The notes under the pieces: model-generated
The model's input: only the letters and a program-made list of their open reading frames with translations
Databases searched by the model: none
Told to the model about the DNA's origin: nothing
Shown: one piece after another, positions 3,235-45,270 of the stretch
Numbering within the stretch: position 1 is the stretch's first letter
Layout: every line of letters begins with the position of its first letter
DNA from: Lacrimispora sphenoides
Lineage (GTDB): Bacteria; Bacillota; Clostridia; Lachnospirales; Lachnospiraceae
Reading direction: 5' to 3'
Assembly (NCBI RefSeq): GCF_900105215.1
Contig: NZ_FOIP01000002.1
Span: forward strand, 1,674,001-1,738,000
Length of the DNA stretch: 64,000 bases
Position numbers and translations under genes: made by a program

Positions 3235-4272
3235 TTATTTAAGGCTGGAAATATCAATTCCCAGGGTCTTTGCTGTTTCCTCATTGACAGTCAGCTTACA
3301 CTTATCCAAAGGAAGGTATTCAATCGGCATCTTGGAGATATCCGCACCCTCTGTCAGGATCTTTACTGCCTGCTGTCCGGTTAAGTAACCCAGTTCATAA
3401 TAATCAATGCCATATGTAGCAAGACCGCCGGCATTTACCATACCTTCTTCTCCGCAGATTACCGGAATACCGTTTTCATTCGCTACCATGCTCACGGTTG
3501 CCATACCTGCTGCAATGGTATTATCGGTAGGAGTATAGAGTGCATCTACTTTGCCTACCATGGAGGTAACAACCGTCTGGATCTCGTTGGAGTTGGAAAC
3601 GGTGTACTCTACCGCTGTCATGCCTTCCGCTTCAATTGCATCTTTTGCCATCTTAGCCTGGATTTCAGAGTTGGATTCTGCGGAGCAGAAAAGAATTCCC
3701 ACGGTTTTTGCATCAGGGAGAATCTTTTTTAAGAGAGCTATCTGCTCTTTCACAGGAGTTAAATCAGAGGTGCCGCTTACGTTTCCTCCTGGGTTATCGT
3801 TGCTCTCAACCAGATCAGATGATGCCGGATCAGTGACCGCTGTCAACAGAATCGGGATATCGCTTGTGGCTCCTGCCACAGCCTGAGCCGCCGGTGTTGC
3901 GATCGCGAGGATCAAATCGTCGTTGTCATTAACCAGCTTGCTGGCAATGGTCTGGCACGTAGGCTGGTCACCGGAGGCGTTCTGCTGGTCAACGGTATAG
4001 TTAAGACCTGCATCATCAAGCGCCTGGATAAAGCCTTTATTGGATGCATCTAAGGCTGCATGCTGTACAAGCTGGAGAACCCCGATTTTATACTGCTTTC
4101 CATCTGCTGTCTTTTCTCCTGTGGATTCTGCTGCTTCACTTGTTTTTTCTGCTGCAGTCGTGGTTTCCGGAGCTGAGGTCGCCGTGTCTGGTGCTTTGCT
4201 GCCGCATGCCGTTAAGGACAACATCATTGCGCCGGCAAGGACCAATGATAAAACATTTGCTGATTTCTTCAT
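3235..4272 (-). CDS. ABC transporter substrate-binding lipoprotein (TrpX-like)
   Basis: A 345-residue lipoprotein with a signal peptide ending in the lipobox LTAC (Cys about residue 23), then a Thr/Glu-rich linker and an ABC_sub_bind fold (KIGVLQLVQHAALD near residue 60, periplasmic-binding type). It captures the solute outside the cell and passes it to the permease. ATG 4272 is used because AGGAGAG lies ten bases upstream; an earlier in-frame start at 4296 has no ribosome site. It is the first gene of the three-gene uptake operon, behind a strong consensus promoter. The related streptococcal TrpX binds tryptophan; the ligand here is not proven. Confidence 0.88.
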   Translation of the reverse strand: MKKSANVLSLVLAGAMMLSLTACGSKAPDTATSAPETTTAAEKTSEAAESTGEKTADGKQYKIGVLQLVQHAALDASNKGFIQALDDAGLNYTVDQQNASGDQPTCQTIASKLVNDNDDLILAIATPAAQAVAGATSDIPILLTAVTDPASSDLVESNDNPGGNVSGTSDLTPVKEQIALLKKILPDAKTVGILFCSAESNSEIQAKMAKDAIEAEGMTAVEYTVSNSNEIQTVVTSMVGKVDALYTPTDNTIAAGMATVSMVANENGIPVICGEEGMVNAGGLATYGIDYYELGYLTGQQAVKILTEGADISKMPIEYLPLDKCKLTVNEETAKTLGIDISSLK

Positions 4273-4325
4273 AATCTTCTCTCCTCTTCCTTCCAAAATT
4301 TCGTCCTTTTTGGAACTTAATTCGT

Positions 4326-4354
4326 ATCATACTACAAAAAAGATTAGCCGTCAA
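4326..4354 (-). promoter_or_regulatory. sigma-A promoter of the TrpXYZ-type operon
   Basis: Minus strand -35 TTGACG (4349-4354) and -10 TATGAT (4326-4331) are separated by exactly 17 bp, close to consensus, and sit about 55 bp before the binding-protein start. No T-box or riboswitch is visible in the leader. Confidence 0.8.
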
Positions 4355-4448
4355 TTTTATTGCTTTAAATTTATGCGTTTTTAATGTGCTAAAGTACATT
4401 TTTGTAAAAAATGACGAAAGCTGGTCCCACATTTCCCGCTTTATTCAT

Positions 4449-4488
4449 TAAAAAAACCGGAGAATCTATGTTCTCCGGTTTTTTTTAA
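4449..4488 (-). terminator. bidirectional terminator after yitT-like gene
   Basis: AACCGGAGAA and its mirror TTCTCCGGTT flank a six-base loop, with A-run before and T-run after. It ends the YitT-family gene transcript and partly overlaps its stop region. Confidence 0.8.
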
Positions 4489-5348
4489 TTGGCAAGAAAT
4501 CCTTTTCCTATTATCTCGCTGGAATTAGATATCAGTATAAACGCTGTTGGTTCCACAGTACGTATATAATTTTTTAGCTTAAGTGCCTGTGAACGCTTCA
4601 TGGTCGTCAGGATGACTGTCTTTTTATGATGACTGAACGCGCCCTGTGCCTCATAAACCGTGGCACTCCGGTTAAGTCCATGAATGATATAATCACAGAT
4701 GGGCCCCGGATCATCACAAATGATGCTGAAACACTTGCACAGATTAATGTTTTCGATGACATCGCCAATCACAAGGGATTTGGCTAATAAACCAAGGGAA
4801 GAGAATAACCCTGTCTCCGGTCCAAATACAAAGTAGGCCAGAATGACTCCTGTCACATCCACCAGCAAAAGCACGGTTCCAATATTAAGGCTGGTGTACC
4901 GTTTCAGAATCATGGCGATAATATCCGTTCCCCCGCTGGAAGCTCCGGTGTTAAAAAGGAGCGCAGAACCTACGCTTGGCAAAAGTATCGCAAAGATCAG
5001 TTCCAAAAGTGGTTCCCTGGTAAGAGGCCTTGTAATCGGATACAGCCGTTCCAAAAAGTAAAGAAATAGGGACATCATGAGGGTGGCATAAACCGTTTTA
5101 ATCCCAAAGCTCCGTCCCAGGAAGAGAAAGCCAGCCACCAGTAAAACTGTATTCACAATGGTTGTGAACTCACTGGCCGACCAATGGGTTAATGCACTGA
5201 TAACCGTCGCAAACCCTGTGACACCTCCGAATGCAAAATTATTGGGGAATTTGAAGAAATAAATCCCCACTACCATAATCCAGATGCTGAACGTGATCAG
5301 TCCATACTCTGCAAGCGTTCTCAGTGTTTTGTTTTCTATCTGCTTCAT
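4485..5348 (-). CDS. YitT family membrane protein (DUF2179 tail)
   Basis: A 287-residue protein with five or six hydrophobic helices in the first 200 residues, typical of the YitT_membrane family (F..GG.TG..T.., then NTGASSGGTDIIA). A C-terminal soluble DUF2179 domain (about 215-280) contains HHKKTVILTTMKRSQ and a GKGF ending. The family is common in Firmicutes, often in several paralogues; its transport substrate or role is not established. It stands alone with its own terminator. Confidence 0.85.
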   Translation of the reverse strand: MKQIENKTLRTLAEYGLITFSIWIMVVGIYFFKFPNNFAFGGVTGFATVISALTHWSASEFTTIVNTVLLVAGFLFLGRSFGIKTVYATLMMSLFLYFLERLYPITRPLTREPLLELIFAILLPSVGSALLFNTGASSGGTDIIAMILKRYTSLNIGTVLLLVDVTGVILAYFVFGPETGLFSSLGLLAKSLVIGDVIENINLCKCFSIICDDPGPICDYIIHGLNRSATVYEAQGAFSHHKKTVILTTMKRSQALKLKNYIRTVEPTAFILISNSSEIIGKGFLAN

Positions 5349-5495
5349 GACTGTTTGTCTATCTCCCTCCGGCTCCTTTAAGCCGGTTCTGTACGTTTTT
5401 GAGTGAATTTATAGTTTCCTTTCACTCCCACTCGACTATACCTCAAAGGGGCGGTAATTACAAACACAATTCCATCTGATATTCTCACAGTCTTT

Positions 5496-7013
5496 CTATT
5501 GTGAACAAGGAGTAAATCCGACACTGGCAAGGAACCGTCCAAACCCATTCCGTCCCTGCTCATCGCATTTGTATACGCCGGAATCCTCCAGAACCCGTTC
5601 AAATACCAGGCCAACTTCCTTCTTTAAAATTTCATCCACATTTTCTTTTGTCACTTCTTCATATTTTCCAAGGAAAGCCTCCGCCCAATCTGCATGCTTT
5701 TCAATGGCTTCTTCATCTCTTATGCTTTTCCCTTCCACAATGCACTGAGCCAGCAGGTTCAGCTCTACCTTCAGCCTGGAAGGCAGGACAGCCAATCCCA
5801 TGACTTCAATTAAGCCGATATTCTCTTTCTTGATATGATGTAGCTCCTGATGAGGGTGGTAAACTCCAAGAGGGAATTCTTCTGTGGTGATATTATTTCT
5901 TAAGACCAGATCAAGTTCGTATACACCATCCCGCATTCTGGCAATAGGGGTGATGGTGTTGTGAGGCTCTCCGTCTGTTTCTGCAAAAATAAAGGCTTCC
6001 TCGTCCGTATAAGCCCTCCAGGCATCAAGAATCTTAGTTCCAAGGGCGATTAGGTCCTCCGGATTTTTGCTTCTGGTGCGCAGTACGGACATCGGCCATT
6101 TCACGATTCCGGCTTCCACTCCCTCAAAGCCTTCCAACTGGAAACAACTCTCCATGGGGGCCTTTGCCATGGCAAAATCATAATTTCCTCCCTGAAAGTG
6201 GTCATGGGACAGGATGGATCCTCCTACAATGGGAAGATCTGCATTGGAACCAAGGAAGTAGTGAGGAAACATTTTGACAAAATCAAACAATTTTACAAAG
6301 GTATCTCTCTCTATCTTCATGGGAATATGCTTTCCGTTGAAAACGATACAGTGCTCGTTATAATAAACATAGGGGGAATACTGAAAGCCCCACTCACTGT
6401 TATTGATTTCAAGACGGATGATTCTGTGGTTATTTCTGGCCGGATGATTGGTCCTTCCGGCATAGCCCTCATTTTCCATACAAAGCTGGCATTTGGGATA
6501 ACCGCCTTGTTTTGCAAGCTTTGCTGCGGCAATCGCCTTTGGATCCTTCTCAGGCTTTGATAAATTCACCGTAATATCCAGGTCACCGTATTTGGTAGGG
6601 GTCACCCACCGCATATCCTTTTTAATCCGGTACCGCCTGATATAATCGGAATCCTGGCTTAGTTTATAATAATATCCGGTTGCAGCCTCAGGCGACTGGC
6701 CCTGATACAGCTCCCAGAATGTTTTTTCTATTTCGCTAGGTCTTGGCATCAGACAATTCATCAGTTTTGTATCAAACAAATCCCGGTATGTAACACTGTC
6801 TTCTTCTATGATTCCGGCCTGGCATGCATAATCAAGTAATTCCTGCAAAACAGCTTCCAGATCAATATCTTCCGGTACTCCATCAGACTCCTCATACTCG
6901 TCCATCATCATTACATCAAGGATTTGGTTAAGGGCATAATACCGGTCCGCTTCTCCGATCAAGCCTGTGTTCCGTCCATATTGTACCAGTTTCTTAATTG
7001 CCTCGTAAATCAT
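5496..7013 (-). CDS. galT: UDP-glucose--hexose-1-phosphate uridylyltransferase (class II GalT)
   Basis: 505 residues, the normal length of the Firmicute class II GalT and much longer than the E. coli type. It moves UMP from UDP-glucose to galactose-1-phosphate in the Leloir pathway. Family-typical stretches include GGSILSHDHFQGG (the His-rich active-site region, about residue 265-280), HNTITPIAR and GVYHPHQELHHIKKENIGLIEVMG. The start ATG 7013 has AGGAGG nine bases upstream and a consensus promoter 45 bp upstream. No galK or galE is adjacent, so the rest of the pathway must be encoded elsewhere. Confidence 0.93.
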   Translation of the reverse strand: MIYEAIKKLVQYGRNTGLIGEADRYYALNQILDVMMMDEYEESDGVPEDIDLEAVLQELLDYACQAGIIEEDSVTYRDLFDTKLMNCLMPRPSEIEKTFWELYQGQSPEAATGYYYKLSQDSDYIRRYRIKKDMRWVTPTKYGDLDITVNLSKPEKDPKAIAAAKLAKQGGYPKCQLCMENEGYAGRTNHPARNNHRIIRLEINNSEWGFQYSPYVYYNEHCIVFNGKHIPMKIERDTFVKLFDFVKMFPHYFLGSNADLPIVGGSILSHDHFQGGNYDFAMAKAPMESCFQLEGFEGVEAGIVKWPMSVLRTRSKNPEDLIALGTKILDAWRAYTDEEAFIFAETDGEPHNTITPIARMRDGVYELDLVLRNNITTEEFPLGVYHPHQELHHIKKENIGLIEVMGLAVLPSRLKVELNLLAQCIVEGKSIRDEEAIEKHADWAEAFLGKYEEVTKENVDEILKKEVGLVFERVLEDSGVYKCDEQGRNGFGRFLASVGFTPCSQ

Positions 7014-7057
7014 TGTGATGTTCCTCCTGGTTTTTTTTATCCTAATATACCTATCCC

Positions 7058-7086
7058 ATTATACATTTCCAAAAGCGGCAAAACAA
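7058..7086 (-). promoter_or_regulatory. galT promoter
   Basis: Minus strand -35 TTGTTT (7081-7086), 17-bp spacer, -10 TATAAT (7058-7063), followed after 44 bp by the galT start. Confidence 0.7.
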
Positions 7087-7103
7087 TATCCTATATTTTG
7101 TTT

Positions 7104-7619
7104 TTATTGCATTTTTTTAATAAAATTACTGATCCGGCTTATAATCATGCCGCCCAGGATCCCTATGATAAGTCCGGCTGCTGTACCGGCGATCAAAAGA
7201 AAGGGTAGATAAAAGAATACTCCGGCCTGTTTGACCACAAGGGCAGCCACGCAAACCTGTCCGATGTTATGCCCCACGCCTCCAAGAATACTGATTCCCG
7301 TTGTGCCCATCCAGTTTTTTCTCTTGCAAAGAACCATTAGAAGCAGGCTTAAGCTCCAGCCTCCCAGGCTGTAGAGCATGGCAAACAAGTTTCCAAAGGT
7401 AAATCCGGTGAGAACGATCCGCAAAAGTGAAATGACAACCGTTCCGCCTGTCCCAACCGTATAGAGCCCCACAACCGTGACCAGATTGGCAAGCCCCAGC
7501 TTTACACCCGGTATTCCAAGGGAAATGGGAATCAGGGTTTCTACAAAGCTGAGAACAAACGCCAGTGCAATCAGCATTCCGTACAACGCTGCCACATGTG
7601 CTGAATTTTTTACTTTCAT
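7104..7619 (-). CDS. Gx transporter / Hpre_diP_synt_I family membrane protein
   Basis: A 171-residue protein with five hydrophobic segments and the family signature ETLIP...GIPGVKLGLANLV near residue 30-50, followed by a Gly-rich GGVGHNIGQ segment. The family is annotated as 'heptaprenyl diphosphate synthase component I' or 'Gx transporter' and looks like an ECF-type S component; in related clostridia it often lies beside a NusG-II domain protein, absent here. The start is ATG 7619 with AGGAGAG upstream; the longer frame to 7649 lacks a ribosome site. Substrate unknown. Confidence 0.82.
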   Translation of the reverse strand: MKVKNSAHVAALYGMLIALAFVLSFVETLIPISLGIPGVKLGLANLVTVVGLYTVGTGGTVVISLLRIVLTGFTFGNLFAMLYSLGGWSLSLLLMVLCKRKNWMGTTGISILGGVGHNIGQVCVAALVVKQAGVFFYLPFLLIAGTAAGLIIGILGGMIISRISNFIKKMQ

Positions 7620-7681
7620 AAGAGCTCTCCTTTTTCCTGCATTCAGCATTTATCTTATCACACTTTGACATTTATGTAAAA

Positions 7682-7731
7682 GAAAATCCCGGAGAGCATC
7701 CTCATTATTATGAAAGTGCTCTCCGGGATTG
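7682..7731 (-). terminator. terminator after degV-like gene
   Basis: A perfect 14-bp inverted repeat (AATCCCGGAGAGCA and mirror) with a T-rich tail on the minus strand, immediately downstream of the DegV gene. Confidence 0.75.
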
Positions 7732-7734
7732 GAA

Positions 7735-8622
7735 CTAATCTGTTCTTTTATCACCCCAGAAAAATAATGCCACAGTACCCGGTCCGGTATGGGAGCCGAT
7801 GACTGCTCCAATGCTGTTTAACAGTACCTTTCCGGAAAGCTTTTGGAAGCGTTCCTCCACCAGGACCGCTACCTCCCTGGCATCATTTTCACAGGCGGAA
7901 TAAGAAAGAAAGCATTTGCCGCTGTAATCTCTCCCGCCCTTTGCATGGGCTTCCATTGTGTTTATAATCTCCTGGATGGCCTTTTTCTTGGTACGGATCT
8001 TCTGCCTTGGAATCAGATGTCCTGTGTTGTCAATGCTCATGAGAGGGCAGATATTAAGCACCGTGCCAAGCATTGCGGATGTGGCTGAAATCCTGCCTCC
8101 CCGCTTAAAACTGGTCAAATCTGTGGAGAAAAACCAGTGATGCACGAACAATTTATTATTCTCCGTCCATTCGGTGGCCTCTTCCAGGGAGACCCCTTTA
8201 TCCCTTAAGTCTGCCACTGAATCGGTCAGAAGACCATAGCCGGAAGAAGCGCCCAGGGAGTCCACAATGACGATCTTTCTATCCGGATATCTGGAACTCA
8301 TTTCCTCTCTGGCTACGCATGCAGAATTGTAGGTTCCTGAAATACCGGAGGAAAGAGTGAGATGCAATATATCTTTGCCTTCCTTTAAAAATGGTTCAAA
8401 AAAATCACAATATTCTTCCACATTTACCTGGGAAGTCACTGGGGTCGCACCTTTGGCGATCCGGTCATAAAACTCAGGAAAGGGAATGCTCTGCCCTAAG
8501 TCATCCGGATAGGTAACGCCATCCATTGTATAGTGAAAACACACATAGGGAATATGGCGCTGCTCAAAAAATTCCTTCTTCATATCTACCGTAGAACAGC
8601 AGGTTAAAATAAAACTTCCCAT
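7735..8622 (-). CDS. DegV family fatty-acid-binding protein
   Basis: 295 residues, the usual DegV length. The N-terminus FILTCCSTVDM carries the ligand-proximal Ser/Thr cluster, SSGISGTYNSA (about residue 88-98) is the hallmark lipid-carboxylate binding loop, and a KRGGRIS segment follows near residue 173. Family members bind long-chain fatty acids; in some Firmicutes (FakB) they present the fatty acid to FakA kinase. No fakA is adjacent. Only 37 bp separate it from the upstream histidine kinase, so it may be partly read through from the Pho operon as well as having its own AT-rich promoter there. Confidence 0.88.
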   Translation of the reverse strand: MGSFILTCCSTVDMKKEFFEQRHIPYVCFHYTMDGVTYPDDLGQSIPFPEFYDRIAKGATPVTSQVNVEEYCDFFEPFLKEGKDILHLTLSSGISGTYNSACVAREEMSSRYPDRKIVIVDSLGASSGYGLLTDSVADLRDKGVSLEEATEWTENNKLFVHHWFFSTDLTSFKRGGRISATSAMLGTVLNICPLMSIDNTGHLIPRQKIRTKKKAIQEIINTMEAHAKGGRDYSGKCFLSYSACENDAREVAVLVEERFQKLSGKVLLNSIGAVIGSHTGPGTVALFFWGDKRTD

Positions 8623-37244: not shown

Positions 37245-37317
37245 CCATATTAATTACAATCTGCAGCAAGTCCTTATAAGAACACCCTAATCGTCTTACA
37301 CACTGTTTCATGACAGC

Positions 37318-37365
37318 AAAGAAGTCCGGAACGCCCTGTTTATCAGGCCTCCCAGACTTTTTACT
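37318..37365 (-). terminator. terminator after sigK
   Basis: AAAGTCTGG...CCTG pairs with its mirror CAGG...CCGGACTT around ATAA, downstream of the sigK stop. The T-tail is interrupted (TTCTTT). Confidence 0.6.
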
Positions 37366-37403
37366 CAACCATCAGAGATGGGATAATTTAATAATGCTTC
37401 TTT

Positions 37404-37772
37404 TTAAATACAATTCTTTTTAAGTTCGTCTCTCAACCGCTCCAAAGCCTTTTTTTCCAGCCTGGATACGTAGGATCTGGAGATTCCCATGACATCCGCG
37501 ATCTCCCGCTGTGTATACTCTTTTCCTCCATGCAGACCGTACCTCATTCCGATTATGGTTTTTTCATTTTCCTTAAGACAACTGTCAAAGGCCTCATACA
37601 GTTCCTTAATATCCTGTTTTAAAATAATAGATTCCAGAGTCTCCTTATTTTCCATTTCAATGACATCTACTAGACTTACAGTCTCTCCATCCTTGTCTAC
37701 GCCGATGGGTTCAAACAAAGAAACCTCTTTTGAATATTTCTTGTTCGCACGAAGAAGCATTAGGATTTCATT
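37404..37772 (-). CDS. sigK: sigma-K 3' segment (SpoIIIC part), split by skin element
   Basis: This frame encodes the last 121 residues of the sporulation sigma factor: from EILMLLRANKKYSKEVSLFEPIG through region 3 to region 4 (YTQREIADVMGISRSYVSRLEKKALERL, DNA-binding helix-turn-helix). In B. subtilis the same part is called spoIIIC. It has no start of its own: upstream of AAT 37772 the frame runs into recombinase DNA. Joined at AATG to the 43712-43993 segment it gives a continuous 210-residue SigK with VEN-EILM at the joint, the sequence conserved in intact SigK proteins. SigK directs late mother-cell genes (coat, cortex). Confidence 0.92.
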   Translation of the reverse strand, partial: NEILMLLRANKKYSKEVSLFEPIGVDKDGETVSLVDVIEMENKETLESIILKQDIKELYEAFDSCLKENEKTIIGMRYGLHGGKEYTQREIADVMGISRSYVSRLEKKALERLRDELKKNCI

Positions 37773-37794
37773 TGCTAGAGTCACCTTGCGGCTC
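37760..37794 (-). other. attachment site at the sigK 3' junction
   Basis: Shared core AATG (37769-37772) and a further ATCCTA two bases on. The element-side arm GAGCCGC (minus strand; plus 37788-37794) begins 16 bp from the central AA. The recombinase stop codon TGA (37768-37770) uses bases of the core. Confidence 0.8.
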
Positions 37795-39453
37795 TGGTAA
37801 TTCAGGCACCTTCGAGCCAAACAGGTACAGATGAACATTCTCTCCATCCCATATGACCTTATACACAAATGTACGGACCGCCGCCCGTCTTTGCCGGACA
37901 TCCATAAGGTCTATCACCTGTTGAAAAGAAGACAGGGTCTGCTTAATGAACTGTAATTCTGTATCGGAAAGCTCTTTATTTTCTGTGTTAAGGGAAAGCT
38001 CCCATAACCGTCGCTCCATTTCCCCTTTTCTTTTATGGAGTCCTTCGATTTGCTGTATGATATATCCTTCTGCCCCGGTTCCTCCGGCTTTTCCAAGGGA
38101 GGCCGCCAGTCCGTTTATTTCTCCTTCCATATTCTTCAGTTCACCCTTTAAACGGGATATATCCCATTCCGCTTCCTCTTTGCTGTCATCCACTGCCTTT
38201 TTGCTCCGGCAAAGCTGCTTTTGAAATTCACTCCAATCCACAGATATTTTTTTGATTTCCTCCAAGACCATCTGATCCAGCATATTTCCATTAACATTCT
38301 TCATTCCGCAGCATTTCATACGGCTTTTTTCCTTCATGGTGCATAAATAAGAATAGATCTGTTCCCCTTCGTCATTGTACCGGCCGGACAGCTTTGGCCG
38401 CATATAACCGCCGCAGCCGCCGCAAAAGAGAATTCCGGACAGCAAAGCCACATTACTGCGGGGTTTCCGGTAATTTTTTGATTTATTTTGGTCCAGCTGC
38501 AGTTGAACCTTGACCCACATGGAGCCGGAAATCACTCCTTTATGCTTTCCAACTGCCACGATCCATTCTTCCATATCTTTCATCTCGTGAGTTTTTCCGG
38601 CTTTTTGAAGGGTACGGTTATATGCAATCACCCCATGGTTTCCGTCAAAGGCTTCTCTTTCTGCAAACAGATCCACGTTCTTTTCCCGTAAATACTCATA
38701 GGCCTCCTGATCTGCAATCATATAAACCGGATTGGTCAATATTCCTTTTAATGCAAAACGGCTGAATAAACGGTCATATTTTGTCCTATGACCATTCTGG
38801 AGCAAATAGGTTTCAGTCTGAGTCAGTGATCCTGTCTCTAAGAATTTCTCGTAAATAACCTTGATTAGATTTGCCTCTTCCGGAATCATCTTAAGCTTAA
38901 ATGCTTTTTTCACCTTACCGTCTATGGTCACGGAGGACACGCTCTCCGACGTATAACCCGTAGGAGTATTTCCTCCCAGCCATCTTCCGCTTTTGGAGAG
39001 CTCCAGCATATTATCCCGGATGCGTTCCGCAATTGTCTCTCTCTCCAACTGAGAGAAAACAGAAGCAATGTACATCATGGCCCGCCCCATGGGAGAGGAT
39101 GTGTCAAATTGCTCTTTTATGGAGATAAAGGAAATATGAAGTTCATTAAGTTCTTCAATCAGATTTGCAAAATCACCGATATTACGGCTTATCCGGTCAA
39201 GACGGTAGCATACCACCGCCGTAAATTTCTTCTTTTTTGCTTCCTGCATCATGACTTTAAACTGAGGCCGTTCAAGGTTTCCACCGGAGAACCCCTCATC
39301 CTCATATACACAGGCGCTGTCAGCGAAACACGCTCCATAATGTGCGGAAATGTATTGTCTGCACAGCTCGATCTGGTTTCCGATGCTCTCTCCTTTTCCG
39401 GTAAATTTTGATTTTCTTGAATAAATTGCAAACCGCTCTTTCCCGGCTTCCAC
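37768..39453 (-). CDS. spoIVCA: large serine recombinase of the sigK skin element (SpoIVCA-like)
   Basis: 561 residues. N-terminal resolvase domain with catalytic Ser in YSRKS (about residue 15), YRLDRISRN (about 83) and the helix E region SVFSQLERETIAERIRDNM; a recombinase domain (GNTPTGYT); a zinc ribbon (C-x2-C ... C-x4-C around residue 340-375); a coiled coil (about 405-500). GTG 39453 is preceded by AAGGAGG. The stop codon lies in the crossover core. Its position at the edge of the sigK interruption is that of SpoIVCA in other spore formers, so it should excise the element in the mother cell. Confidence 0.93.
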   Translation of the reverse strand: MEAGKERFAIYSRKSKFTGKGESIGNQIELCRQYISAHYGACFADSACVYEDEGFSGGNLERPQFKVMMQEAKKKKFTAVVCYRLDRISRNIGDFANLIEELNELHISFISIKEQFDTSSPMGRAMMYIASVFSQLERETIAERIRDNMLELSKSGRWLGGNTPTGYTSESVSSVTIDGKVKKAFKLKMIPEEANLIKVIYEKFLETGSLTQTETYLLQNGHRTKYDRLFSRFALKGILTNPVYMIADQEAYEYLREKNVDLFAEREAFDGNHGVIAYNRTLQKAGKTHEMKDMEEWIVAVGKHKGVISGSMWVKVQLQLDQNKSKNYRKPRSNVALLSGILFCGGCGGYMRPKLSGRYNDEGEQIYSYLCTMKEKSRMKCCGMKNVNGNMLDQMVLEEIKKISVDWSEFQKQLCRSKKAVDDSKEEAEWDISRLKGELKNMEGEINGLAASLGKAGGTGAEGYIIQQIEGLHKRKGEMERRLWELSLNTENKELSDTELQFIKQTLSSFQQVIDLMDVRQRRAAVRTFVYKVIWDGENVHLYLFGSKVPELPEPQGDSSK

Positions 39454-39509
39454 CTGGCCCTTCCTCCTTACTAAAGCATTACGCTGCGTTTTGCCCCCTT
39501 AATCCCAAA

Positions 39510-39538
39510 CATACAGGACATGGGAGGCAACATACATT
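39510..39538 (+). promoter_or_regulatory. sigma-E-like promoter before the small skin ORF
   Basis: CATACATT (39531-39538) matches the sigma-E -10 consensus CATACAnT; CATACA 15 bp upstream is a moderate -35. A sigma-A-like TATAAT overlaps at 39538-39543 with AGGACA 17 bp before it. So mother-cell expression is possible but not the only reading. Confidence 0.4.
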
Positions 39539-39566
39539 ATAATAACAGTCTATATCAGGTCCGTTT

Positions 39567-39728
39567 ATGAATATGATCGTATATCAGCCCAAAACAGAAG
39601 AAGACAGAAAAGAATTGAGAAAAAAAGCTGCACTCCTGCATAGTCAGGCTGTCATTCAATACATCCAGCAGCTTTCCTGCCCGAATGACCAAAAACAGGC
39701 TCTTATGGAAGAGCTTCACACAATCTGA
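39567..39728 (+). CDS. small protein, candidate recombination directionality factor
   Basis: A 53-residue frame starting NMIVYQPKTEEDRKELRKK: hydrophobic strand, charged helix, then a second helix with SCPNDQKQALMEEL. No domain is recognised with certainty, although similar small ORFs sit beside serine recombinases in clostridial elements as far as I recall. It is the only gene on the plus strand of the element, divergent from the recombinase, and its last 13 bases overlap the tail of the hydrogenase large-subunit gene. In C. difficile a small skin-encoded protein is the excision factor; size and position make this one a candidate. The ribosome site is weak (AGGT). Confidence 0.5.
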   Translation: MNMIVYQPKTEEDRKELRKKAALLHSQAVIQYIQQLSCPNDQKQALMEELHTI

Positions 39729-40162
39729 ATTGTATTCATATACTTCCCGCTTAAGAAAACATGAGTGGCGCAGGACACGCAGGGATCAAAAGACCGTATG
39801 ATCCTTCCGATTTCCATAGGCTCTGTTGCATCTTTTACAGGTGCCCCCATCAGTGCCTGTTCTCCGGTTCCCTTCATTCCATTTGTCTGTGTTGACAGAT
39901 TCCATGCAGACGGGGTTATGATCTGGTAAAAGGCTATCTTACTGTTGTCAATATACAGCCAATGGCCCAGGGCTCCCCGTGTCGTATCCACCAGTCCTTT
40001 CCCCGATGCCTGCACAGGAATCTCATATTCCCTCTGCATGGATACTCCCGGGATCAGATGATCGATAAGGGTCTGCATAATTTCCACAATTTTCTTAGCT
40101 TCCAGCACTCTTGCAATGGTCCGGTCCATGGCAGAGATCCCGTTTCTGTACTCGCCGGAGAG
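39716..40162 (-). pseudogene. [NiFe] hydrogenase large subunit, C-terminal part after in-frame UGA
   Basis: Downstream of TGA 40163-40165 the same frame continues LSGEYRNGISAMDRTIARVLEAK to the C-terminal nickel-site motif DPCVSCATH (two Cys), followed by a 14-residue tail VFLSGKYMNTIQIV that the maturation protease would remove after His. An internal ATG at 40129 is possible, but there is no good ribosome site and the piece could not work alone. Together with the upstream part it makes a 458-codon frame, a normal length for the family. Whether the whole is expressed depends on the UGA. Confidence 0.85.
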
Positions 40163-41092
40163 TCACTGCCTTGCCAACGGCCCTACCTCATAAGGGATAT
40201 TATTGTATCTCGGCGCTTTTATCCAGGAATATGCCTGGGGTTTATTTCTGTCCGGTTCATCATTTTCGTTGAACCAGGCGTATTCGTCTTCCTGAGTTAT
40301 AAGGGCAGGATCAAAGGGGGATGTCTGTCCATTAGAATAAACCAGAGGATCCACATAGAGCGTTCCTAAATTTTTATAATGGTTAAAGCTCCCATAGGAA
40401 AGTAAGTTGCCGTAGCCTCCGCCGTAATGATAATACTCCGGATAAAAGGTTCCGATTGTGTATACGTCCGGAACCATTTTTTCAATGATAAACTGTCCAA
40501 TGTCATATAGGATAGATTTTATGGTAATGATCTTATCTGCTGAGATCGGCGAAGTGATCCCTCCAATGAATATTCCGTGATTATGAGGAACTTTTCCTCC
40601 AAGAATGGCCAGCATCTGATGCGCAGCCCTGCTGAACTGAAGGGATTCAAAATAATCGTTTACCATTTTATCGTTTATGTCCTTTGGAAGCCTGTAATCA
40701 TTGTGATCTGTCTTAAACAGCGGATAATCCTCAGGAAGCTTTACAAAATCCGGCAAGGTAAACTGGTAAAAATGTCTTAAGTGATTTTGCAGGAACTCGC
40801 AGGCATGAAGAAGGTCCCTTAAATACCTTCCCTGCTCAGAGGGGACAATGTTCAATGCTTCTTCCAGGGCAAGAGCAGAAGCCATGGAATGTGCGGTTGA
40901 ACAGATACCGCAGATGCGCTGTGTAAAATAAACAGCATCAAAAGGACTTCTGCCCTGAAGCATTTTTTCAAATCCACGGAACATCAGGCCTCTCATTTTT
41001 GCATCCACCACTGACCGTTCTTCAATATCGGCATCAATTTCCATGAAGCCGCTGATACGGGTCACAGGATTAATGGTTATTCTCTCGGCCAT
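40163..41092 (-). CDS. [NiFe] hydrogenase large subunit, N-terminal part up to in-frame UGA
   Basis: 309 residues starting at ATG 41092 (GGGGAG upstream). RITINPVTRISGFMEID is the family N-terminus, and RICGICSTAHSMAS (about 58-71) supplies the first pair of nickel-ligand Cys. It ends at TGA in the conserved context GPLARQ-*-LSGEY, where relatives commonly have Trp (GPLARMWMSGEY-like), so TGG to TGA is the simplest explanation. The second ligand pair is lost if translation stops. The large subunit carries the Ni-Fe centre that oxidises or makes H2. It lies three bases after the small-subunit gene. Confidence 0.85.
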   Translation of the reverse strand: MAERITINPVTRISGFMEIDADIEERSVVDAKMRGLMFRGFEKMLQGRSPFDAVYFTQRICGICSTAHSMASALALEEALNIVPSEQGRYLRDLLHACEFLQNHLRHFYQFTLPDFVKLPEDYPLFKTDHNDYRLPKDINDKMVNDYFESLQFSRAAHQMLAILGGKVPHNHGIFIGGITSPISADKIITIKSILYDIGQFIIEKMVPDVYTIGTFYPEYYHYGGGYGNLLSYGSFNHYKNLGTLYVDPLVYSNGQTSPFDPALITQEDEYAWFNENDEPDRNKPQAYSWIKAPRYNNIPYEVGPLARQ

Positions 41093-41094
41093 AT

Positions 41095-42000
41095 TTACTC
41101 CCCTCTCATAGTGTCATAGGTGATAAAAGGCTCCATTGCATCAGGAAATCCAAACTGAGCACACCCGATGCAGGGCGAATCACCTCCTATGGGCCAGTTG
41201 ACATGCCCGTTCCATTGGCGAATGGGACAGTCGATCTGGGTAACCGGACCTTTACAGCCCATCATGTACATACAGGTTTCCTGTCCGAGCTTCGTTGCAA
41301 AGATGCCGCTGTCAAAATAAGATCTCCTTGGACATCTGTCGTGAATGGTAATGCTGTAAAACATCAAGGGACGGTCTCTGCTATCAAGCGGGGGTTCCCC
41401 ATATAATATCAGATATGCCAGAGTGCCCATAAACCAGTCCGGATGACATGGACAGCCTGTTAATTTAATCACTTTTCTCTGCAAAACCTCCTGTACTCCC
41501 ACACACTGAGTTGGATTGGGCCTTGCCGCCGACACGCCTCCGTGGGAAGCGCAGGCTCCCACGGCAATCACATGGGCCGCCTGTTCACCCAGTCTTTTAA
41601 CCGCCTCATATCCGGTAATCTCCCTGCCGTTGTGCCGGCCGATGACGTTATAAGAACCGTTGTCTTTTAAAGATACTGCACCTTCCACAGCAAGGATATA
41701 ATCACTGCCTATCACGTTGAACAACTGATCCATGGCCTTGTTTCCAAAAGAATTCATCAGACTGTTGCTGTATATAAAATTAGTCATTTGAGTGAGCAGA
41801 TACTTAAAATCCGGATTTTGCCCGTCCAAAAGGGAGATGGTATTACCAGAGCAGCCATTTAATTCAAGCCAGACAAGATTCCGCTTTTGCCGCGTCTCAC
41901 CAGCGATTTCATCCCTTACCCTGTTCACAAGACTTTCCGTTGTTTTTAACCTGCTTTCCTGATAAGGACATTCAAAGCTTCCGCAATCCAAACGTTTCAC
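41095..42000 (-). CDS. [NiFe] hydrogenase small subunit
   Basis: About 301 residues. LELNGCSGNTIS (first Cys of the proximal cluster), a VGACASHGG loop, LTGCPCHPDWF, and the C-terminal Cys series HDRCPRR, MGCKGP, IDCPIRQWN, SPCIGCAQFGFPD match Fe-S ligands of uptake-type small subunits. There is no Tat signal, unlike exported enzymes, so this one is cytoplasmic or at the inner face. The GTG at 42000 lies five bases after the cytochrome-b5-like stop; an alternative ATG at 42069 would overlap that gene by 64 bases. Passes electrons between the Ni-Fe centre and a partner. Confidence 0.88.
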   Translation of the reverse strand: MKRLDCGSFECPYQESRLKTTESLVNRVRDEIAGETRQKRNLVWLELNGCSGNTISLLDGQNPDFKYLLTQMTNFIYSNSLMNSFGNKAMDQLFNVIGSDYILAVEGAVSLKDNGSYNVIGRHNGREITGYEAVKRLGEQAAHVIAVGACASHGGVSAARPNPTQCVGVQEVLQRKVIKLTGCPCHPDWFMGTLAYLILYGEPPLDSRDRPLMFYSITIHDRCPRRSYFDSGIFATKLGQETCMYMMGCKGPVTQIDCPIRQWNGHVNWPIGGDSPCIGCAQFGFPDAMEPFITYDTMRGE

Positions 42001-42005
42001 CAGCT

Positions 42006-42476
42006 TTACTCTGTAGCCAAATAGCCGATGATCGGTAATCTGGTCAGGACCATTGCTCCCGGATGACATGTTGCAAAATTAACTGATAAATCATTTCCTG
42101 GATCAAGACCAAAATGGCTGTCTCCTTTCCAGACGGAATTATTTGTCACATCATACACCACTCCGTTTACCGCTACATAAGCCGGAGCTCCGTTCTTTCC
42201 ATTGTATAGGGATAACTCTTCCAGGGTAAAGTATCTTGGAACTTCCTCCTCAGCTTGATTTGCATGGATGTTCTGATATGGATACTGTGTTTCTTCCATA
42301 TCCACTTGATTTGTCTGGCTAAAATATTTGATATGACTTTCCAGCATAAACACTTCACTGCTCAAATGATCCAACACAACGTTATTGTTGTACTGGTTGG
42401 AATGAAGTCTCTCTATATCCTCGTTCATGTGCTTGATGCAGTTCCCGATATAATTCAAAAACATATTTAATTCCAT
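42006..42476 (-). CDS. cytochrome b5-like heme/steroid-binding domain protein
   Basis: 156 residues. The first 75 form a helical region with coiled-coil character and no known domain; residues about 82-155 are a Cyt-b5-like domain (RYFTLEELSLYNGKNG, PAYVAVNGVVYDVT, W.GDSHFGLDPGNDLS, THPG-like CHPGA, LPIIGYL). The two axial His positions are not both of the classical HPGG type, so heme binding is uncertain. Between the HypA-like and small-subunit genes, it may be the redox or docking partner of the hydrogenase. ATG 42476 follows GGGAGG. Confidence 0.78.
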   Translation of the reverse strand: MELNMFLNYIGNCIKHMNEDIERLHSNQYNNNVVLDHLSSEVFMLESHIKYFSQTNQVDMEETQYPYQNIHANQAEEEVPRYFTLEELSLYNGKNGAPAYVAVNGVVYDVTNNSVWKGDSHFGLDPGNDLSVNFATCHPGAMVLTRLPIIGYLATE

Positions 42477-42542
42477 GAAATAACCTCCCATAATAAAATA
42501 CTGAATGATTGATATTTTTACCGGACAACAGTCAGGCCTTTC

Positions 42543-42800
42543 TCATTGGGATATCTCACCTTCAATTTCATCTATAACCGCAGTAAGCGGCTCTATATCC
42601 TGTTTAAGAACCTGTATGTTTGTCCAGTCTCCAATCAGCGTATTATTTCTTTCTGAAAAATAGTCACGGATGCTGTCTTCACTTATATGGCTGTTTGTAT
42701 GTACCGTAATTGTTAAATAAAAAATCTTCTCAATGAAATTCTCCCCGCATATTTCGACAATTGCTTCATATATATTCTGATTTAGGAACGTATCATGCAT
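42543..42800 (-). CDS. short HypA-like protein lacking the zinc domain
   Basis: 85 residues beginning Met-His-Asp, as in HypA nickel chaperones where Met1-His2-Glu3 binds nickel. The rest resembles the HypA N-terminal fold (IYEAIVEIC, FYLTITVHTNSHISEDSIRDYF, WTNIQVLKQDI). The usual C-terminal zinc ribbon (two CxxC) is missing. It overlaps the protease gene by eight bases and may deliver nickel to the large subunit. The family resemblance is weak, so an unrelated small accessory protein remains possible. Confidence 0.5.
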   Translation of the reverse strand: MHDTFLNQNIYEAIVEICGENFIEKIFYLTITVHTNSHISEDSIRDYFSERNNTLIGDWTNIQVLKQDIEPLTAVIDEIEGEISQ

Positions 42801-43254
42801 TAGTGATTTCCTCCGATATGATTTTTTTTATTGCGCATTCAATTACCCTGCAGATCTGGGGCAGTTTATCCCTTAAAACAGTGCTTATTTCCTGGTCAAA
42901 GCCGATTTCGCAGATTTCTATGCCCATCAGGTACCCTTTAAATGGACTGCCATATAGCTTCATGAGTTCCACCATACTCAAATCATGCTGCATGGAGAAT
43001 AAGGAAGGCTGTGACATCACATCTTCAAGGCTGGTCAGATGAACGCTTCCCGGCTCCGCTCCAGAAGAAAGTGCATCAAGGATGAAAACAAAGTCACCCT
43101 TATCTAGTAAATAAAAGCAGTTTTGAAAATCGGTTTCACCAATGATCACATGAATATCCTGGCGGGTCAGCCGGTCTTCCAAGATTTCGGCAGCTTTAAT
43201 TGCTATGGCGTCATCCTTCATAAAACGATTGCCGATAGCAACTAACTTCACCAT
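42793..43254 (-). CDS. hydrogenase maturation protease (HyaD/HycI family)
   Basis: 153 residues. AIGNRFMKDDAIA is the N-terminal GN..M.DD motif with the nickel-sensing acidic residue (about 16), FILDALSSG holds the second Asp, and SMQHDLSM the His. The enzyme removes the C-terminal tail of the large subunit after nickel insertion. First gene of the skin hydrogenase operon, preceded by AAGGGGG. HypBCDEF are not in the window, so the cell must supply them elsewhere. Confidence 0.88.
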   Translation of the reverse strand: MVKLVAIGNRFMKDDAIAIKAAEILEDRLTRQDIHVIIGETDFQNCFYLLDKGDFVFILDALSSGAEPGSVHLTSLEDVMSQPSLFSMQHDLSMVELMKLYGSPFKGYLMGIEICEIGFDQEISTVLRDKLPQICRVIECAIKKIISEEITNA

Positions 43255-43289
43255 ACCCTTGCCCCCTTCTCAAAATTGTTATTTATCAA

Positions 43290-43316
43290 TATATATGTTG
43301 GACAAATTTAAATATT
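43290..43316 (-). promoter_or_regulatory. candidate sigma-E-like promoter of the hydrogenase operon
   Basis: GAATATT (core 43311-43316), 13 bp, CATATATA (43290-43297). The -35 fits the sigma-E pattern kmATATT well; the -10 fits CATACAnT only partly. It starts about 40 bp before the protease gene. The remaining 43320-43508 spacer is AT-rich and holds no gene that I can see. Confidence 0.3.
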
Positions 43317-43508
43317 CTTTGCCGGGGGGATTATTGGCGGAAAGGTGGCTGTATTCCTGATACGTTCCGGAAATATTAGGATGATTTTCCCAAAACCTTT
43401 ATGCATTACTCACATAAACTTTCATAAACTTTTGTTTCTTTTGCACATATTTTTGCAATTGTTTCGAAAAATCAAGCTTGCACCCTTACCACTTTAAGGA
43501 TATACTGA

Positions 43509-43727
43509 TCAGGAATCAACCATGGATTTGGTCAAAATATCGTAAGCCGATGTGTTAGAAGAAATTGCAGCTTCCAGCGACATTTTATCCGGTCTCGCCG
43601 AAGATTTGCATGCTATGATCTTAGAATTTAATATATAACCGTCAGGAACCGGTGTATGCTCTGCTGCTGCAGGCATACACCGGTTCCTTGCTTTCGCCCC
43701 GTATGGAGCCGCTATGATAGGATACCA
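43509..43727 (-). other. potential C-terminal extension of the recombinase after excision
   Basis: Next to the 5' sigK junction, in the phase that follows the recombinase in the excised circle, the frame stays open for 72 codons (WYPIIAAPYG ... DILTKSMVDS). In the integrated form it has no start of its own. On excision the recombinase stop TGA becomes TGG and reading would continue through it. Whether it is ever translated is unknown. Confidence 0.4.
43645..43687. repeat. perfect 15-bp inverted repeat beside the 5' attachment site
   Basis: GGAACCGGTGTATGC (43645-43659) and its exact mirror (43673-43687) with a 13-base loop, 19 bp inside the element arm. No clear U-run follows on either strand. 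It could end transcripts of the truncated sigK or act in recombination. Confidence 0.6.
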
Positions 43728-43745
43728 TTCTCCACACACTTGGCC
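43706..43745 (-). other. attachment site at the sigK 5' junction
   Basis: Core AATG (43726-43729) followed at the same distance as in the other site by ATCCTA. The element-side arm GCGGCTC (minus; plus 43706-43712) starts 16 bp from the central AA, an exact mirror of the GAGCCGC arm at the other end. Confidence 0.8.
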
Positions 43746-43993
43746 GCATAAGTGGCTAGTCTGGAGCCTCTGTCCGGGTGAAAGGTATTGACGGCTTTTA
43801 TAAGTCCTATGGTACCTACGGAAAGAAGATCTTCCATATCATAATCTGTATTCTGATATTTTTTTGCCACATGTGCCACCAGACGCATATTTCGCTCGAT
43901 GAGTGTGGCTCTCGCCTCCTGATCCCCTTCCTGGTATCGTTCCAGACACTCTCGTTCTTCTCGCGCAGTTAAAGGTTTGGGAAAAGTTTTCAA
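43712..43993 (-). CDS. sigK: sigma-K 5' segment (SpoIVCB part), split by skin element
   Basis: 93 codons: KTFPKPLTAREERECLERY, then regions 1.2-2 with NMRLVAHVAKKY, DMEDLLSVGTIGLIKAVNTF and LATYAAKCVEN; the final GILS comes from the element before TAG. The first 89 residues belong to SigK. TTG 43993 follows AAGGTGG, and an in-frame TAA lies 24 bases upstream, so there is no pro-sequence, as in C. difficile and unlike B. subtilis. Activity in the mother cell would then depend mainly on excision. A CATAAAAT motif upstream resembles a sigma-E -10. Confidence 0.92.
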   Translation of the reverse strand: MKTFPKPLTAREERECLERYQEGDQEARATLIERNMRLVAHVAKKYQNTDYDMEDLLSVGTIGLIKAVNTFHPDRGSRLATYAAKCVENGILS

Positions 43994-44091
43994 AGAAAGC
44001 CACCTTAAACTTACTTACTCTCATTTTATGCCGGCCTTCTCTTTAAAGTGCTTTTACAAAAAATATAGGCTGGTACTTATTTTCCTTTCCA

Positions 44092-45270
44092 TTAATGATG
44101 GAACAGACGAAGCCCTGTAAAAGCCATGGCCATCCCATATTGGTCACACGTTTCAATTACCTGGTCATCACGGACCGATCCCCCAGGCTGGGCTACGTAC
44201 TTTACACCGCTTCTGTATGCTCGGTCAATGTTATCGCCAAATGGGAAGAAAGCATCAGATCCCAGGGAAACCTCAGTCAGCCGACTAAGCCAGGCCTTCT
44301 TTTCTTCTCCTGTAAATACGGCTGGCTTTACCCTGAAAATATTTTCCCATCTGTTGTCAGCAATAACATCCATATAATCTTCTCCAATGTAGACATCAAT
44401 GGCATTGTCCAGGTCGGCACGACTGATGCCATCCACAAACGGCAGCTCCAAGACCTGTGGTGCCTGGCGAAGAAACCAGTTATCCGCTTTATTTCCTGCC
44501 AGCCTTGTGCAGTGGATGCGGGACTGCTGACCAGCCCCGATCCCAATCGCTTGTCCGTCCTTTGCAAAACAGACAGAATTGGACTGGGTATATTTTAAAG
44601 TAATAAGGGAAATAATCAGGTCAATTTTTGCTGATGGGGGGATATCCTGGTTTTTTGTCACCACATTCTTTAAAAGATCTTCATGAATTTTCTCTTCATT
44701 TCTTCCCTGCTCAAACATAATCCCAAAAACTTGTTTTCTCTCAAGCGGCTCCGGCTGGTAATCCTGGTCAATTTGAATGATGTTGTAATTGCCGTTTTTC
44801 TTTGACTTTAAGATATCCAGGGCTTCCGGTTCATACCCTGGGGCGATAACGCCGTCCGACACTTCCCGTTTGATTATTCTGGCAGTATCCGTATCACAGA
44901 TATCCGACAGGGAAATGAAATCTCCGAAAGAAGACATACGGTCGGCACCTCTTGCCCTTGCATAGGCACAGGCCAGGGGGGAAAGCCCTTCCATATCCTC
45001 TACCCTGTAGATCTTTGCAAGGATCCGGTCAAGAGGCAGTCCCACTGCGGCACCGGCCGGAGACACATGTTTAAAAGAAGCCGCCGCAGGAAGGCCGGTC
45101 GCTTCCTTTAATTCTTTTACCAGCTGCCATCCATGAAAGGCATCCAGGAAATTGATATATCCCGGCCGGCCGCTTAAGACCTTAATTGGAAGCTCTTTCC
45201 CTCGTGGCATAAAAATCCTTGAGGGCTTCTGATTCGGGTTACAGCCATATTTTAATTCCAGCTCGTTCAT
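44092..45270 (-). CDS. purH: AICAR transformylase (PurH transformylase domain only)
   Basis: 392 residues, matching the AICARFT half of bifunctional PurH without the N-terminal IMP cyclohydrolase domain. Landmarks include [51 protein letters not shown] and [12 protein letters not shown]. It adds the formyl group from 10-formyl-THF to AICAR. The missing cyclohydrolase step is supplied by the upstream PurO-like gene. ATG 45270 has AGGAG nine bases before it; the earlier ATG 45288 overlaps the upstream stop. Confidence 0.92.

Follow-up and report, generated by a model that had tools for sequence, protein, structure and literature searches.

What is a hydrogenase operon doing inside a sporulation sigma-factor gene? 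The question is raised by a 64,000-nucleotide stretch of Lacrimispora sphenoides DNA (contig NZ_FOIP01000002.1, positions 1,674,001 to 1,738,000; hereafter the window), in which sigK is interrupted by a 5,957-bp element whose two joints both cut a short core, AATG. Computed rejoining at AATG yields a SigK of 210 amino acids (aa) with CVENEILM at the joint. A first interpretation of this DNA, made without database searches (the sequence-only reading), had placed the sigK halves at 43712-43993 and 37404-37772 on the minus strand, where NCBIfam SigK matches confirm them; both score under the full-length model cut-offs because each is half a protein. The element length, the AATG joint and the 210-residue product with VENEILM that it had proposed were reproduced as well. 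The NEILM residues are shared with intact SigK of other Lachnospiraceae, and the closest intact relative (L144) is identical at 17 of the 18 bases compared at the joint. An intact second sigK, a case that the sequence-only reading had raised, was not found in the strain's own genome (two contigs, 99.99% complete); the nearest other match, a candidate that we rejected, is SigE. We think it reasonably probable that this is a small, long-resident sigK-intervening (skin-type) element of Lacrimispora, predicted to be excised, whose hydrogenase cargo would be read by sigma-E and used in the mother cell.

sigK in the genus and the family

Is the interrupted gene peculiar to one strain? Among the matches listed, the two sigK parts are separated in 22 of 25 genus genomes, including some assembled as one contig. 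We compared 19 complete elements, namely that of the window and 18 others with both ends on one contig; of the 24 other genomes, five hold broken or one-ended copies and one holds none. Rejoining at AATG gave CVENEILM in 19 of 19, with a SigK of 210 aa in 16 and of 216, 217 and 198 aa in L125, L140 and L141, respectively; the elements range from 2,654 to 11,508 bp. All 19 carry a serine recombinase gene, a small divergent open reading frame (ORF) and a gene for a cytochrome-b5-domain protein, and 14 also carry the protease and the small and large hydrogenase subunits, which the other five lack. The element thus has the marks of the skin-type class: it splits the sigK coding sequence, short-core rejoining restores SigK in every complete copy, and it codes for its own serine recombinase. 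Recurrence of this arrangement excludes chance. An artefact of assembly or annotation is hardly credible and was rejected, since the parts lie apart in so many genomes, several of them single contigs, and the joints are identical in all complete elements; nothing was found in its favor.

The pattern changes outside the genus. We surveyed 200 Lachnospiraceae genomes, one per genus, and found a sigK match at E 1e-30 or better in 136; near-full-length single frames lead these matches, so sigK is intact in many. A few genomes (G173, G057 and G087 among them) gave partial SigK matches only, and sigK may be interrupted there too. The comparison of the locus that the sequence-only reading had proposed came out in its favor, with the same element type in genus relatives, the same cargo in 14 of 19 and an intact gene elsewhere in the family; a skin-type element with metabolic cargo, conserved in relatives, is what the genus comparison supports. 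A hydrogenase relative at E 1e-20 or better was found in two of the 199 other family genomes (G188 and G106), where it lies away from an intact sigK and has a cytochrome-b5 gene beside it.

The hydrogenase cargo

The hydrogenase set comprises a protease, a small subunit and a large subunit bearing the RxCGxC and DPCxxC motifs. In the sequence DPCVSC a cysteine occupies the selenocysteine position. The best PDB sequence match for the large subunit of a relative (L138) is of the [NiFeSe] type (PDB 5jsu and others, E 4e-96), and we infer that the enzyme is closest to this type, with cysteine replacing selenocysteine. It would differ from the [NiFeSe] periplasmic hydrogenase in that replacement, in the cytochrome-b5-domain protein of its operon and in its N-terminus: by eye, no twin-arginine signal was seen in the small-subunit N-termini of the window and the listed relatives.

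The reading frame of the large subunit is interrupted in the window strain: an in-frame TGA (40163-40165) divides it into parts at 40163-41092 and 39716-40129. Among the 17 genus copies this one alone has a stop; the other 16 are stop-free, and for that reason we rejected the TGA as a coded residue as the principal explanation. It may be a sequencing error. As the sequence stands, the whole large subunit is probably not made in this strain, and hydrogenase production is probably broken there. The gene order given by the sequence-only reading holds for the protease, cytochrome-b5 and hydrogenase genes, the recombinase and the small ORF; the interruption had been missed, and the HypA label is weak, PF01155 falling under the Pfam cut-off in the window (E 0.049), L137 (0.008) and L128 (0.025).

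Is the hydrogenase maintained, or is it carried along? The large subunit is present in 17 of 25 genus genomes as a single copy each: 14 in complete elements, two (G015 and G017) beside one sigK part on that part's contig, and one (G007) on a contig with neither part. Its ratio of nonsynonymous to synonymous substitutions (dN/dS) is 0.024-0.099 in nine pairs, indicating purifying selection, and hydrogenase DNA distances follow those of spoIVA (correlation 0.993, 14 genomes, P 1e-4), as do recombinase protein distances (0.965, 18 genomes with L142 left out, P 1e-4). In L142 (L036) the recombinase match ends at residue 461, and the gene may be frameshifted. The cargo could be a mere passenger, without sporulation function, in an element kept solely for sigK regulation; the five complete elements without a hydrogenase, the interrupted copy of this strain and the other genes seen by eye in other clostridial elements would fit that explanation. 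We nevertheless regard it as quite unlikely, given the purifying selection, the single copies in 17 genomes, 16 of them stop-free, and one element that includes hyp maturation genes. This 11.5-kb element (L137, genome G019) holds hypF (TIGR00143), hypC, hypD and an AIRS-domain hypE-like gene at its positions 3947-8458, and the sole HypD match of the genome lies inside it; from its gene content it would be a nearly self-contained hydrogenase island within a removable element. On these comparisons the hydrogenase cargo is real and under selection.

How the hydrogenase came to be there is suggested by its distribution. The spoIVA tree groups the five hydrogenase-less genomes together on one side, with support of 0.79. 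A single gain or a single loss is likely, though short of proof. Because G188 and G106 hold cytochrome-b5 and hydrogenase genes apart from an intact sigK, the sigK element may have acquired this operon from elsewhere, and the operon may by then have already served sporulation. The rest of the cargo varies: an alpha-galactosidase-like gene occurs in five of seven other elements with ORFs listed (Pfam Melibiase_2 was tested for L137), and the cytochrome-b5 proteins of L126, L134 and L140 have long, variable P/T/G/Q-rich linkers between the N part and the cytochrome-b5 domain.

Promoter evidence and the timing of cargo expression

When would the cargo be read? A sigma-E matrix was built from the Bacillus sigma-E consensus, and its scores were ranked among 326 upstream regions drawn from 400 kb of the strain's own genome (cargo site included, gene calls crude). 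The cargo promoter, GAATATT-N13-CATATATA, scores 16.04; one other region scores higher, and the spoIVA control scores the same. The pattern ATATT-N12-15-CATAYA occurs twice in the window, where 0.46 sites would be expected, and the cargo promoter is one of the two. Relatives keep the promoter block while the surrounding bases change. The number of background regions scoring as high is 0-6 of 326 in 13 of the 14 hydrogenase elements and 21 in L127, and 2, 20, 66, 66 and 137 in the five hydrogenase-less elements. The region ahead of the cytochrome-b5-hydrogenase operon scores 14.2 in G188 and 11.0 in G106 with this matrix; both are raw scores without own-genome ranking. Because the cargo promoter scores like that of spoIVA, mother-cell expression of the hydrogenase is predicted, on evidence that is fair, not strong. 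A precedent exists in Clostridioides difficile, where CD3258, an iron hydrogenase, is among the genes under sigma-E control (PMC3789822).

The sequence-only reading had proposed the reverse, that the mother cell would lose hydrogen (H2) metabolism and the spore line would keep it, and we consider it unlikely that the operon serves vegetative or spore-line H2 metabolism and is removed from the mother cell by excision. The forespore chromosome would indeed retain the element, as is reported for other sigK elements (PMC10745906), and the alpha-galactosidase gene of some elements has a sigma-A-like box, so some cargo genes may be read during vegetative growth. Set against this are the sigma-E-like promoters of the 14 hydrogenase elements, strong in 13 and weak in one, and the other hydrogenases of the genome (five matches of the [FeFe] type, plus an additional, partial match to PF00374); the interrupted large subunit of this strain also counts against it. 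Loss of H2 metabolism from the mother cell thus appears the weaker proposal, because the promoter suggests use in the mother cell, the operon would persist on the excised circle and other hydrogenases exist.

Recombinase, candidate partner and excision

Does the recombinase belong to sigK? We kept the best 80 of 408 recombinase relatives in named genomes. The SigK 3' part directly follows the recombinase in 71 of these 80 loci; in four the contig ends at once, and five are without it. Six two-ended elements outside the genus interrupt SigK at the same residue, with AATG in both joints in five and AACG in L030, and by eye, from ORF starts, their cargo includes no phage structural genes. Clostridial sigK elements outside the genus that share the recombinase family (L041, L083, L088, L089, L068 and L030) have varied cargo, with ORFs that by eye are germination-permease-like, pantothenate-pathway-like and glycosidase-like. 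The arms of the rebuilt circle site (attP) are conserved: GAGCCG ... TAGCA-AATG-.tATcCTATCAtAaCGGCT.

The small divergent ORF, of 53 aa in the window, is present in all six two-ended elements outside the genus. A profile built from 19 Lacrimispora members and two outside members matches 29 of the best 80 loci, 15 of them Lacrimispora-type; four of the six outside elements are not in the profile. Ahead of the ORF stands a promoter block, which across the 19 reads CATACATT in 10, CATACAAA in six, CATACAAT in two and CATATATT in one, with a moderate matrix score. The ORF regularly accompanies the recombinase, is small and has a promoter block of its own; it is therefore the best candidate for the directionality factor, and it is probably a recombination directionality factor. 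Identification by name was dropped: one search gave 11 proteins and a profile search 290, with no telling name among the 120 matches listed.

Only seven in-frame codons lie upstream of the TTG start of sigK, which leaves no room for a pro-sequence. Since SigK is without a pro-sequence here, as in C. difficile, excision may be the main control on SigK; against this, short N-termini also occur where SigK is intact in the family. We rejected the idea that the element had caused the pro-sequence to be lost, since in other Lachnospiraceae an intact SigK often begins near the same FPxPL motif (30 loci were given, of which 19 had a motif match, some with longer upstream frames, and the 11 without were dropped).

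Is the element a decayed phage? A recent phage origin of the recombinase is not supported, its best phage match being 39.6% identical (Terrisporobacter phage). No phage structural family was matched by any of the seven window proteins compared with PHROGs. The recombinase matched families of integrases, DNA invertases and transposases; the hydrogenase subunits, two of which were compared, matched two families of unknown function, and four proteins had no match. The sequence-only description of an element stripped of phage genes goes further than this, as nothing indicates that such genes were ever present. G+C content (0.438 in the element, 0.449 in the flanks) gives no sign of foreign origin. 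A sigma-70 scan of 37300-44150 found 14 promoter-like sites against 14.3 in shuffles, and eight terminator-like sites against 5.8, and is thus uninformative. The long hairpin that separates the sigK 5' part from the cargo (Table 1) is possibly a terminator or insulator, and a repeat resembling it is visible in element L136. The small subunit probably starts further in than 42069.

Table 1. Features of the interrupted sigK locus (window coordinates)
Feature	Position	Strand	Basis
sigK 5' part (regions 1.2-2)	43712..43993	-	TTG start; NCBIfam SigK best match, E 8.7e-42
attL: AATG core 43726-43729 and element-side arm ending GCGGCTC	43706..43729	-	arm conserved across 19 elements
Long hairpin between sigK 5' part and cargo	43640..43712	-	predicted -45.7 kcal/mol, 73 nt
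Sigma-E-like cargo promoter, GAATATT-N13-CATATATA	43290..43317	-	matrix rank second of 326 upstream regions
Hydrogenase maturation protease	42793..43254	-	PF01750, TIGR00072
85-aa HypA-like protein (weak)	42543..42800	-	PF01155 E 0.049, under cut-off
Cytochrome-b5-domain protein	42006..42491	-	PF00173; relative in all 19 complete elements
[NiFe]-hydrogenase small subunit	41095..42069	-	TIGR00391, PF14720, PF01058
[NiFe]-hydrogenase large subunit gene, TGA-interrupted at 40163-40165	39716..41092	-	PF00374 on both parts
53-aa divergent ORF, candidate recombination directionality factor	39567..39728	+	present in 19/19 complete elements
Conserved promoter-like block (CATACATT) preceding small ORF	39509..39538	+	sequence conservation
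Large serine recombinase	37768..39453	-	PF00239, PF07508, PF13408, all above cut-off; phrog_95 integrase
attR: element-side arm GAGCCG... and AATG core 37769-37772	37769..37794	-	joint comparison
sigK 3' part (regions 3-4)	37404..37772	-	NCBIfam SigK best match, E 8.1e-42

A proposed mechanism among known sigK elements

How might these parts work together? The element splits sigK at AATG, and we propose that the recombinase and its 53-aa partner would excise it, restoring SigK. Sigma-E would read the cargo operon (protease, HypA-like protein, cytochrome b5, and small and large hydrogenase subunits), and the mother cell would make the hydrogenase both before excision and at about the time of it, using first the chromosomal copy and later the excised circle. 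In the forespore the cargo genes would stay unread, kept for the next generation.

Several observations weigh against this proposal. The window strain's own large subunit is interrupted, and both excision and cargo expression are predictions from sequence. Among the matches listed, two genomes (G001 and G016) show the sigK 5' part only; G010, 67% complete, shows neither part. The cytochrome-b5 genes of the hydrogenase-less L125, L140 and L141 lack a good sigma-E match (137, 66 and 66 of 326, respectively), and the alpha-galactosidase genes have no strong sigma-E match in five elements and, by eye, a TATAAT box. The spoIIID control scores poorly (6.06), with 122 of 326 regions doing at least as well, and for the small-ORF block that number is 23-103 of 326; the matrix thus misses some sites. 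The recombinase and spoIVA trees disagree on the position of hydrogenase-less G011, and the correspondence of the 53-aa ORF to CD1234 of C. difficile is putative.

How does the element compare with known systems? The C. difficile skin element likewise has a large serine recombinase and a small partner (CD1231 and CD1234) in a split sigK, and its SigK is without a pro-sequence (PMC5025042). CD1234, the directionality factor, is under sigma-E and SpoIIID in that account; here, sigma-E control of the small ORF is predicted. The C. difficile element differs in being 14.6 kb and prophage-like (PMC10745906), and the word hydrogenase is absent from the account in PMC5025042. Its site also differs from that of Bacillus subtilis, whose skin element (SpoIVCA) splits sigK as well and recombines at AATGA, overlapping the AATG core (PMC10745906). 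The B. subtilis element is 48 kb and made up mostly of phage genes, and its SigK has a pro-sequence. Closer in lacking phage genes are two further removable elements: sigK island IV of Bacillus cereus biovar anthracis (PMC10745906) and gin in the sporulation gene gerE of B. cereus (PMC5595907). These are larger (22 and 28.6 kb), and the cargo described for them is made up of hypothetical genes and genes for restriction-modification and DNA metabolism rather than a metabolic operon. Among the matches listed (titles and abstract openings, with few subscription journals covered), we found no report of a hydrogenase in a sigK element.

A bolder proposal, to which we give an even chance, is that the element is a domesticated developmental cassette: a hydrogenase for the mother cell only, on DNA that would be cut out during its use, with sigma-E triggering both the enzyme and the cut. 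This recombinase family would then have turned sigK, across Clostridia, into a permanent docking site where sporulation cargo free of phage genes can be exchanged.

What does this mean for sporulation in these bacteria? In the accounts cited here, sigK elements are portrayed either as prophage-like or as islands without a clear use, and the skin element is called an exception in clostridia (PMC5025042). Here, we find a genus-wide, host-inherited element with a conserved redox operon and a mother-cell-type promoter, which weakens the view of an exception. With elements down to 2,654 bp, Lacrimispora also offers a compact pairing of recombinase and candidate directionality factor. The finding makes it testable whether such cargo serves sporulation and what role hydrogen has in a sporulating clostridium.

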